33,876 nt of DNA from an uncultured Desulfococcus sp. (lineage in GTDB: Bacteria; Desulfobacterota; Desulfobacteria; Desulfobacterales; Desulfococcaceae): positions 1 through 33,876 of the forward strand of contig CAJXSB010000005.1 of NCBI GenBank assembly GCA_913060435.1, in the 5' to 3' direction. The notes beneath the pieces were generated by a model. The model made no database searches and was not told the origin of the DNA. It worked only from the letters and a program-made list of their open reading frames with translations. Each line of letters starts with the position of its first letter. Position 1 is the stretch's first letter. Below, piece by piece: positions 8,395 to 12,116 of the stretch. A program made the translations under genes and the position numbers.

Positions 8395-9126
8395 ATGCTG
8401 AACCCCAACGCGCCCATCCCCCTCTATCACCAGCTGGCGGATATTCTGCTGGCGAAGATCCGTTCGGGTGAATATCCGCCGGGATCCCGGATTCCGGCGG
8501 AGCTCAAGCTCGCTGCAGCCTACCGGATCGGGCGTCCGACCGTGCGGCAGGCCATTGAGATGCTGGTGAAGAAGGGGTTTCTCTCTCGAAAACGGGGGGC
8601 CGGAACCTTTGTCCGCGAGAGACAGGCCGAGGTGGAACTCTTCTCCCTTGACGGAACGGCGGCCTCCTTCCACAAGAAGGGACTTGCCACCGCCACCCGG
8701 GTGATCGAGGCCGTGCGGCTGGAAGCAGTGGATGGACAGCCGGAAAATCCCTTTGACGGCAGAGATGCCTATTTTTTTTCCCGGCTGGTGCAGGTCGAAA
8801 GAACGCCGGTGCTGATCGAGGAAATCTACCTCCATCCGACATTCTTTTCGGGCATCGACCAGATGGATCTGAAGAATGCATCCCTTTCGGAAATCGCCGA
8901 TGAACGCTACTTCATGCGGCCCGACAGCGCCCGCCAGAATTTTCGGATCGGACACCCCGGCGCGGCGAAGGCCGATCTCCTCGGGGTGGCGCCTGAGGCG
9001 CCGGTGCTGATCGTCAGCCGGTACCTCAATTTTCCCCAGGCCGACAGCGCCGTCTATTCAGCGCTTTTCTGCCGAACCGACCAGTACGTTTTTTCCCAGA
9101 CCATAGGAGGAACGACCCATGGATAA
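8395..9126 (+). CDS. GntR-family transcriptional regulator (HutC/UTRA type)
   Basis: 'PLYHQLADILLAKIRSGEYPPGSRIPAELKLAAAYRIGRPTVRQAIEMLVKKGFLSRKRGAGTFV' followed by a UTRA-like effector domain. Confidence 0.93.
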   Translation: MLNPNAPIPLYHQLADILLAKIRSGEYPPGSRIPAELKLAAAYRIGRPTVRQAIEMLVKKGFLSRKRGAGTFVRERQAEVELFSLDGTAASFHKKGLATATRVIEAVRLEAVDGQPENPFDGRDAYFFSRLVQVERTPVLIEEIYLHPTFFSGIDQMDLKNASLSEIADERYFMRPDSARQNFRIGHPGAAKADLLGVAPEAPVLIVSRYLNFPQADSAVYSALFCRTDQYVFSQTIGGTTHG

Positions 9127-10345
9127 CCGCGGATACTATCACCAGTTCGGCGGGGCCTACCTGCCCGAAATTCTGGTGGCCACCTTTGACGAGCTCGACG
9201 AGACCTTCCGGGAGGCGAAAAACGATCCGGCCTTCTGGCAGGCCTATGAAGCGCTGATGGCAAGCTATTCCTGCCGGCCCACGCCGCTGACCTACTGCGA
9301 GAATCTGACCCGGCACTTCGGCGGCGCCAAGATCTATATCAAGCGGGAAGACCTCAACCACACCGGCGCCCACAAGGCCAACAATGTCATGGGGCAGGGC
9401 CTGCTCGTCCGGCGGATGGGCAAGCGGCGGGTCATCGCCGAGACCGGCGCCGGGCAGCATGGCGTCGCCACGGCGACCATGGCGGCGAAATTCGGCTTCG
9501 AGTGCACGATTTACATGGGCGAGGTCGACGTCGAGCGGCAGCGGCCCAATGTCTTCTGGATGGAGCGGCTGGGAGCGACGGTCCACCCGGTCACCGACGG
9601 GACGCGCATCCTCAAGGATGCCATCAACGAGGCCTTCCGGGACTGGGTTTCCAACATGGACACGACCCATTACGTCCTGGGCACCGCCTGCGGCCCCCAT
9701 CCGTTCCCCGAGATGGTCACCTATTTCCAGTCGATCATCGGGAAGGAGGCCCGGGCGCAGATCCTGGCTGCCGAGGGCCGGCTGCCCAGCCGGATCTACG
9801 CCTGCGTCGGCGGCGGATCCAATGCCATGGGAATCTTCAGCGGCTTCATGGAGGATCCGGTGGAGCTCGTGGGCGTGGAGGCCGGCGGCAGAGGGCTCGA
9901 CTCCGGGCAGCACGCCTCCCGGCTCTGTTCCCAGGATGCCAGCATCGGCGTGGCCCAGGGCTACCGGACCTATTTCCTTCAGGACGCCGACGGGCAGATG
10001 CAGGAGACCCACAGCATCGCCGCTGGCCTCGATTACGTGGGGGTCTCTCCCATCCTCTCGGACTTGAAGGAGACCGGGAGAGCCCGTTTTGCTGCGGCAA
10101 CGGACCAGGAGGTCGTAGCGGCCCTCTCGCTCACCATTCGGAAGGAAGGGGTGATCCCGGCCCTGGAATCCGCCCATGCGTTTGTGCAGGCGTTCAAGGA
10201 GGCCCCCGGGCTTTCACCGGAGGAGAGCATCATCATCAACCAGTCGGGCCGGGGCGACAAGGACATCTTCACGGTGGCCGACGCCTTCGACGACCCGCGA
10301 TGGAAGGCGTTCATCATCAGAAAGGCGGAACAGTACCATGCTTGA
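9119..10345 (+). CDS. trpB: tryptophan synthase beta chain
   Basis: 'YIKREDLNHTGAHKANNVMGQGLL', 'RVIAETGAGQHGVATATMAAKFG', 'CVGGGSNAMGIFSGF', 'SAGLDYVG'-type segment. SD aggagg. Overlaps gntR by 8 bp. Confidence 0.97.
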   Translation: MDNRGYYHQFGGAYLPEILVATFDELDETFREAKNDPAFWQAYEALMASYSCRPTPLTYCENLTRHFGGAKIYIKREDLNHTGAHKANNVMGQGLLVRRMGKRRVIAETGAGQHGVATATMAAKFGFECTIYMGEVDVERQRPNVFWMERLGATVHPVTDGTRILKDAINEAFRDWVSNMDTTHYVLGTACGPHPFPEMVTYFQSIIGKEARAQILAAEGRLPSRIYACVGGGSNAMGIFSGFMEDPVELVGVEAGGRGLDSGQHASRLCSQDASIGVAQGYRTYFLQDADGQMQETHSIAAGLDYVGVSPILSDLKETGRARFAAATDQEVVAALSLTIRKEGVIPALESAHAFVQAFKEAPGLSPEESIIINQSGRGDKDIFTVADAFDDPRWKAFIIRKAEQYHA

Positions 10346-11099
10346 ATCGTATATCCACGACCGGCGGAAGGAAAAGGAGATCCTGCTGATGACCCATATC
10401 GTCATGGGATACCCGTCCTTCGAGGCATCCATGGAGATCGTGGCGGCCATGGTGGATGCGGGGGTCGATCTCATGGAGCTTCAGATTCCCTTCTCCGAGC
10501 CCATCGCCGACGGGCCGGTGATCCTGGCGGCCAACCAGCAGGCCCTGGAGAGGGGGGCCACCGTCGACAGGTGCATGGCCTTCGCCCGGGAGGCGGCCGC
10601 GCGCTTCGAGATACCGTTCCTCTTCATGACCTACTACAACATCCTATACCGCTTCGGCGTTGAGGCGTTTACGCAAGCCATGGCAGAGCACCGGATCCGG
10701 GGCGCCATCGTTCCCGACCTGCCGCCCGAGGAAGGCGGCGAATACATGGCTGACATGGCGGCGCGGCAGCTCGATCCCATCTACATCTATGCGCCGACGA
10801 CCCCTGAAGCACGGATGAAGCGCATCGCCGATGTCGGCCGGGGGTTCATCTACTGCGTGGCGAGAAAGGGCGTGACCGGCGCGGAAACCGATTTTTCTTC
10901 GGAGCTCACGGACTATCTCGACCGTTGTCGACGGGCCACCCGGCTCCCGCTGGCCGTCGGCTTCGGGGTGAAGCGTCGCGAGGACGTTGATTTTCTCAAG
11001 GGGAAGGCCGATATCGCCGTGGTGGGTTCCCAGACCATCCGTCTGATGGACCGGGAGGGGCCGGGGGCGGTGGGGGACTTTGTCCGGAGCCTGCGGTGA
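10338..11099 (+). CDS. trpA: tryptophan synthase alpha chain
   Basis: 'THIVMGYPSFEASMEIVAAMVDAGVDLMELQIPFSEPIADGPVI', 'PDLPPEE' and 'GFGVKRREDVDFLKGKADIAVVGSQTI'. ATG 10338 overlaps trpB by 8 bp; the ORF track over-extends to 10176. Confidence 0.95.
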   Translation: MLESYIHDRRKEKEILLMTHIVMGYPSFEASMEIVAAMVDAGVDLMELQIPFSEPIADGPVILAANQQALERGATVDRCMAFAREAAARFEIPFLFMTYYNILYRFGVEAFTQAMAEHRIRGAIVPDLPPEEGGEYMADMAARQLDPIYIYAPTTPEARMKRIADVGRGFIYCVARKGVTGAETDFSSELTDYLDRCRRATRLPLAVGFGVKRREDVDFLKGKADIAVVGSQTIRLMDREGPGAVGDFVRSLR

Positions 11100-11152
11100 G
11101 GCAACGGCGATGGATCCAACAGGGATAGGCCATTGCCGGGGCCCCGGGCTGC

Positions 11153-11180
11153 TTGACTTTGGCGGCGGATGCGCTATCAT
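11153..11180 (+). promoter_or_regulatory. sigma70-type promoter of arfB
   Basis: TTGACT (11153-11158), 16 nt, TATCAT (11175-11180). Confidence 0.6.
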
Positions 11181-11273
11181 TTCAAATCAAAGGTGCCGGC
11201 TGGCGGCATATCCCGCCGTCACCGGCCCGCAGCGCCGACACTGGGGCTGCATAGACAGGAAAGGAGCCAGTAG

Positions 11274-11741
11274 ATGATTGAGGTTTGCGGCATCACCATC
11301 GGACCCGAAGAGATCCATGAAACGTTCATGCGATGCTCCGGGCCCGGCGGGCAGAATGTCAACAAGGTCAATTCGGGGGTTCAGCTGCGCTTCGACGTGG
11401 GCGCGTCGGAGTCCCTGCCGGAGGAGGTCCGCCGGCGGCTGATGAAGATCGCCGGACGGCGGCTGAATCGGGACGGTGAGATCGTCCTGACGGTCCAGAA
11501 GCACCGGAGCCAGGTCGGCAACCGGCAGGAGGCGCTGCTGCGCCTCGAAGAGATGATCCGGGAGGCCGCCCGGCCGCCGAAGGCGCGAAAGCGCACCCGG
11601 GTGCCGCGCAGGGCGCGCCGGCAGCGCCTGGACGACAAGCGGCACCGCAGCCGGATCAAGGCGTTTCGGCGGGATGTCACCCACAGGGCAGGGCCGGCGG
11701 ATGCCGGCCCTGCTTGTTTTCGGGCGGCGTTAGTCGGATAG
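11274..11741 (+). CDS. arfB: ArfB/YaeJ-like peptidyl-tRNA hydrolase (ribosome rescue, RF-1 GGQ domain)
   Basis: 'MRCSGPGGQNVNKVNSGVQLRFDV' GGQ motif, 'RDGEIVLTVQKHRSQVGNRQEALLRLEEMI' and basic tail 'KARKRTRVPRRARRQRLDDKRHRSRIKAFRRDV'. SD aaggag. Confidence 0.92.
   Translation: MIEVCGITIGPEEIHETFMRCSGPGGQNVNKVNSGVQLRFDVGASESLPEEVRRRLMKIAGRRLNRDGEIVLTVQKHRSQVGNRQEALLRLEEMIREAARPPKARKRTRVPRRARRQRLDDKRHRSRIKAFRRDVTHRAGPADAGPACFRAALVG
11688..11720 (+). terminator. intrinsic terminator located inside the arfB reading frame
   Basis: Perfect 11-bp stem gcagggccggc (11688-11698) / gccggccctgc (11703-11713), loop ggat, followed by ttgtttt (11714-11720). The arfB stop codon is at 11739-11741. Confidence 0.82.
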
Positions 11742-12116
11742 AAACGTCAGAGCTCCCTTGATCTCCTGGTACTCCTTCTCGGATATCTGCTTCCAGGGAC
11801 CAGACGGAAAGAACTGGATGAGGGCATTGGTGGTCGGCGAAAACACCTTGCCGGATTTCAGGATCGGCTCCTTCATCAGGTATTTGAATTCCCCGCCCAG
11901 ATCGATCACCATGTCGATGATATCGTTATCCTCGTGCATCTCGACAATCCAGAACGGACGGGCCATGCCTTTTCCCATGATGTGCCTGCGGCCGTCCGGC
12001 CCGGTGGAAACCTCGATATAGGCCTTGTCGATACCGGCACCCTGCCGGTCCCGCGTCATCAGAAACGCATCCACTACAATATACTCGCCATTCTCAAAGG
12101 GAATCCAATCTGTCAT
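11730..12116 (-). CDS. hypothetical protein (128 aa), convergent with and overlapping the arfB 3' end by 12 bp
   Basis: Complete ORF MTDWIPFENGEYIVVDAFLMTRDRQ...GALTFLSD with a plausible globular sequence. No family recognised. Confidence 0.7.
   Translation of the reverse strand: MTDWIPFENGEYIVVDAFLMTRDRQGAGIDKAYIEVSTGPDGRRHIMGKGMARPFWIVEMHEDNDIIDMVIDLGGEFKYLMKEPILKSGKVFSPTTNALIQFFPSGPWKQISEKEYQEIKGALTFLSD

Follow-up and report, generated by a model that had tools for sequence, protein, structure and literature searches.

The arfB gene of an uncultured Desulfococcus sp. raises the question of whether a GGQ-type ribosome rescue factor may be produced from a non-stop mRNA, since a terminator hairpin lies inside its reading frame, ahead of the stop codon. 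We analysed this gene in a 33,876-nucleotide stretch of contig CAJXSB010000005.1 (assembly GCA_913060435.1), hereafter called the window.

The arfB gene and its product

The gene and the parts that define its product are as follows.

11261-11266, plus strand: Shine-Dalgarno sequence AAGGAG, 7 nt 5' of the ATG, read from the sequence
11274-11741, plus strand: arfB open reading frame of 155 codons with an ATG start, coding for the stop-codon-independent peptidyl-tRNA hydrolase ArfB
11346-11354, plus strand: GGQ catalytic motif (residues 25-27), from the translation and the alignment to E. coli ArfB
11571-11681, plus strand: basic C-terminal tail, or mRNA-channel tail (residues 100-136), aligned to the tail of E. 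coli ArfB

The assignment of the gene to arfB, proposed in a preliminary description of this DNA, is borne out by the GGQ motif and by profile matches. Residues 7-136 match the ArfB family NF006718 with 155 bits for a cut-off of 100 (profile positions 10-138 of 140), and the protein also matches the RF-1 domain of Pfam (PF00472). The family domain thus ends at residue 136, which corresponds to profile position 138 of 140. E. coli ArfB in 4v95 aligns to residues 9-135 (E = 4e-24). The protein harbours an RF-1-type domain with the GGQ motif, followed by a linker and the basic tail, and is devoid of a stop-codon-recognition domain. It does not match the ArfA signature PF03889. E. coli and Caulobacter ArfB/YaeJ and mitochondrial ICT1 belong to the same family, with the GGQ domain and the basic mRNA-channel tail. 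Judging from its sequence, the product is an ordinary, genuine ArfB, predicted to release peptides on non-stop ribosomes.

A terminator within the reading frame

The elements at the 3' end of the gene are listed below. The comparison genome, denoted G001, belongs to the one further species of the genus represented among the genomes compared.

11688-11713, plus strand: 11-bp terminator hairpin within the reading frame, with a perfect G+C-rich stem and covariation in G001
11714-11720, plus strand: U-tract TTGTTTT, in frame, read from the sequence
11739-11741, plus strand: TAG stop codon of arfB, inside the 3' end of a convergent gene

The arms of the stem are GCAGGGCCGGC and GCCGGCCCTGC, with the loop GGAT, and the hairpin occupies arfB codons 139 onward. 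The perfect in-frame stem and the TTGTTTT tract were already reported in the preliminary description, whose coordinates for them are exact; the spacing from the U-tract to the TAG is 18 nt. Folded alone, positions 11684-11721 yield -28.5 kcal/mol (z = -5.7), with none of 200 shuffled sequences as good, and the energy of the hairpin is at the strong end of the range for terminators in the genus. The U-tract is interrupted by a G, and its T-score of 3.21 is middling relative to the values of 1.8-5.4 for terminators located downstream of genes.

On the opposite strand at 11688-11720, the hairpin is present and a U-tract is absent, and the element therefore reads as pointing in the direction of arfB. 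We rejected the possibility that it is the terminator of the convergent gene, because that strand lacks a U-tract in both species. A dispersed repeat was also rejected, as a search of the same genome with 111 bp around the hairpin returned only weak, short matches (best E-value 0.005). An assembly or frame error is unlikely, given that G001, on a single contig, keeps the same frame through the hairpin with no gaps.

Intrinsic terminators usually release the RNA 7-9 nt past the stem. The 3' end of the arfB transcript is therefore predicted at approximately 11720-11722, and the mRNA would thus finish after codon 149 (TTT), the last whole codon, without a stop codon. Such an mRNA would encode approximately 149 residues, i.e., the whole ArfB domain (residues 7-136) and a tail of approximately 13 residues. 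Since the family profile finishes at residue 136, this agrees with the earlier proposal that a truncated product would retain both the GGQ domain and the mRNA-channel tail. The locus thus combines a terminator placed in the reading frame before the stop codon with a functional domain that is encoded in full ahead of the predicted 3' end of the mRNA.

Conservation and divergence in the congener

G001 has no further congeners among the genomes compared, and a search of viral contigs yielded just two matches, both distant and partial. The arfB proteins of the two species are 70% identical, and the synteny of trpA, arfB and the convergent gene is kept. In G001, the in-frame hairpin is GAACGGGGCCGGC-GGAA-GCTGGTCCCGTTC, followed by TGTTTTAG, whose TAG is the stop codon of arfB. 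Taking the stem of the window as the reference, 6 of the 22 stem positions differ between the species, with all 11 pairs kept. The changes include G-C to A-U and A-U to G-C replacements that affect both sides of the stem, together with two G-C to G-U replacements. Six random changes would keep all pairs with a probability of 0.001, or 0.005 if transitions are favoured threefold. Four of the changes are in the 3' arm, and three of these fall at third codon positions, a bias that fits a translated frame, on a small count. The in-frame tail, GPA(D/E)AGP, is similar in both species.

The two genes differ in the position of the stop codon. In G001 the TAG closes the U-tract at codon 150, for which the window has CGG. 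A few bases would then decide whether the G001 mRNA is non-stop: release at +7 would lose the G of the TAG, and release at +8 would keep it. G001 may represent a leaky version of the arrangement, an intermediate, or a sign that the overlap is mere compaction. The strongest argument against a regulatory reading is that its stop codon closes the U-tract.

The stop codon of G001 would likewise be lost if exonucleases trimmed the transcript back to the hairpin. This bears on another explanation, that the hairpin is mainly an RNase III site or a 3'-end stability element, in which case the cut or trimmed transcript would lose its stop codon and still be a non-stop mRNA. We regard this as quite improbable: the U-tract conserved on the arfB strand points to termination, and a stem of 11-13 bp is short for RNase III. 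Nevertheless, the stem-loop of E. coli arfA is both a terminator and an RNase III site (PMC10107115).

Genetic environment and base rate of such terminators

Upstream of arfB and at its 3' end, the following features were found.

11153-11180, plus strand: putative arfB promoter TTGACT-N16-TATCAT, matching the consensus at 10 of 12 positions
11730-12116, minus strand: convergent gene for a protein of 128 aa, adjoining arfB in G001 too

The claim that arfB has its own promoter stood only in part. The 10/12 match is present in the window; in G001 the -35 motif and its surroundings align (GCTTGACTT), but TACTTT is a poor -10 motif, and upstream of arfB no sigma-70-like promoter was called. A trpB-trpA pair is found directly upstream of arfB (window positions 9119-11274), and the trpA-arfB order also occurs in G001. 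arfB may be the last gene of a trp transcript besides having its own promoter. The product of the convergent gene has no family match in Pfam or NCBIfam. Its 3' end shares 12 nt with the end of the arfB reading frame, an overlap missed in the preliminary description.

One alternative is a neutral origin for the embedding. The element would be the ordinary terminator of arfB, or of a trp-arfB operon, embedded through neutral loss of the usual stop codon in a tight convergent pair; read-through, or a slight over-extension, would furnish a stop often enough, and tmRNA would merely clean up. The convergent neighbour with its 12-nt overlap fits this explanation, as do the G001 stop, which closes the U-tract, and the scarcity of stop codons in GC-rich sequence, where a frame can easily stay open across a hairpin.

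We evaluated how common such an arrangement is by scanning gene ends for hairpins (6 bp or more, -12 kcal/mol or lower) followed by a U-tract, with genes called using a codon-usage model. The sample comprised 1,824 gene 3' ends, from 2.4 of the 4.46 Mb of G001 and from the window; the base rate thus reflects roughly one half of G001, and the window's own genome contributed just 34 kb. Of 35 terminators near these ends, 33 are downstream of the stop codon, and the 2 that overlap a coding sequence are those of arfB in the window and in G001. The same scan showed that overlapping convergent pairs are not rare (24 of 226). In gene interiors, covering 545 kb (the first 0.8 Mb of G001 and the window), no hairpin at or below -18 kcal/mol with a U-tract was found. 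A chance hairpin in GC-rich DNA is thus rejected by both the interior and the end-of-gene scans, and the in-frame arfB terminator is beyond chance.

These counts also weigh against neutral embedding. Despite the 24 overlapping convergent pairs, none of the other 33 terminators overlaps a coding sequence. In each species the gene concerned serves ribosome rescue, and this class is one in which the arrangement has a known regulatory use; the arrangement has also outlived a species divergence that left the proteins 70% identical. We consider neutral embedding rather unlikely.

Distribution among arfB genes

The comparison set consisted of 163 distinct arfB loci, drawn from the order as well as from GTDB genomes spanning several phyla. 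An in-frame terminator was found in two of them, those of the window and of G001, and is absent from all 161 loci outside the genus. The other arfB proteins end at 136-145 residues, with one at 151 whose gene lacks the terminator, compared with 155 in the window and 149 in G001. The hairpin stands where other arfB genes have their stop-codon region. In two genomes of the same family (G002 and G005), arfB ends normally at 141; in two others (G003 and G004) the arfB search gave no match. A tmRNA-like sequence is present in both of the latter, below the family cut-off in G003.

The preliminary description had named the arfB 3' ends of related Desulfobacterota as a test for conservation of the element. 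The outcome is mixed, with the greater part in its favour. The hairpin and U-tract are in frame in the congener, with compensatory changes, but all 161 other loci lack them and the G001 stop ends the U-tract. A trait general in Desulfobacterota is thus rejected, and as far as sampled the trait appears to be an innovation of the genus.

Hairpins of other kinds occur at the 3' ends of two further arfB genes. In locus L262 (genome G290), a 13-bp stem, TTCAACTTCCGAGGAATAACTTCGGAAGTTGGG (-18.8 kcal/mol), extends from -16 to +17 around the stop codon, which it holds in its loop, and a U-tract is absent; it is possible that this hairpin is RNase-processed or masks the stop codon. In locus L123 (genome G101), an 11-bp stem, GTAGAGACGGGTTTGAAACCCGTCTCTAC, starts from the stop codon (-1 to +28), also with no U-tract.

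The extension of the protein might instead have no regulatory effect, if termination is weak and full-length ArfB of 155 residues is made with a harmless or useful tail. The reading frame does run on to a stop codon in both species, the GPA(D/E)AGP tails are similar and the changes in the 3' arm favour third codon positions. However, the hairpin itself dictates the similarity of the tails, no other ArfB among the 163 loci has such a tail, and the hairpin is among the more stable terminators of the genus. We find this explanation hardly credible.

A proposed back-up circuit

Both genomes encode a tmRNA (ssrA) with the tag ADDYNYAVAA, with smpB just upstream. Neither ArfA (PF03889) nor RqcH (PF05833) was detected in the window's genome or in G001. 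ArfB is therefore the only back-up found and may be the sole one.

We propose that a non-stop mRNA serves as the template for ArfB, which is tagged as long as tmRNA works and accumulates when tmRNA fails. RNA polymerase would release the transcript at the U-tract (approximately position 11720), ahead of the TAG, and ribosomes would reach the 3' end of the mRNA carrying an ArfB of approximately 149 residues. With trans-translation working, tmRNA-SmpB would add ADDYNYAVAA and the tagged ArfB would be degraded. With trans-translation absent or overloaded, untagged ArfB would be freed, slowly at first; it would then act on the ribosomes stalled at the end of the arfB mRNA and build up as a back-up rescue factor. 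We infer termination, tagging, degradation, induction and positive feedback from the arrangement of the sequence elements. Some observations speak against this regulatory reading: coupled ribosomes could hinder formation of the hairpin and permit read-through, the feature is found in two genomes only, and the U-tract, with its G, is middling. We give regulation by a non-stop mRNA a probability of roughly 0.6, a value held down because the TAG of G001 is fused to the U-tract.

Relation to known systems

Control of this kind has been demonstrated for Bacillus subtilis brfA (YqkK), in which synonymous mutations that break the hairpin established the role of the internal terminator, and the truncated product is tagged by tmRNA (PMC6881298). 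As in arfB here, an in-frame intrinsic terminator is found just before the stop codon, and the functional part of the truncated product is kept, with 62 of 71 codons in BrfA and a predicted ~149 of 155 in arfB (PMC6881298). In contrast with ArfB, BrfA is a small RF2-recruiting protein, to which ArfB is not homologous, and its effect was shown by experiment. E. coli arfA similarly harbours a stem-loop in its reading frame, yielding a non-stop mRNA and an active truncated product (PMC3989581, PMC10107115), and it is also a back-up to trans-translation; unlike ArfB, ArfA is small and RF2-dependent, and its main route is RNase III cleavage. As ArfA and BrfA are both small RF2-recruiting proteins, the analogy is one of regulation, not of descent: by its regulation, arfB would work like these two genes with no kinship to them. 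Francisella ArfT is, like ArfB, an alternative rescue factor that backs up trans-translation; its authors searched the gene for a terminator or an RNase III site within it and found neither (PMC6299226).

We found no literature report of a non-stop mRNA for ArfB of E. coli or Caulobacter or for ICT1. The available parts of two reviews (PMC8012679, PMC8874680) and of a survey (PMC11633108) do not mention a non-stop arfB mRNA, and our literature search, with most subscription papers outside its scope, identified no ArfB case of internal-terminator control. The earlier suggestion that such control had not been described for ArfB is in line with this outcome, control of this kind being known for two unrelated rescue proteins.

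It is probable that, in one genus, a GGQ-type ArfB independently gained the non-stop switch of ArfA and BrfA, providing a self-amplifying, RF2-free back-up. ArfB is poorly expressed in E. coli. Among alternative rescue factors it has the widest distribution, being present in 58% of 15,259 surveyed genomes (PMC11633108). If our reading is true, rescue proteins with no common descent have come under this type of control more than once, and non-stop control can serve a factor that needs no RF2.
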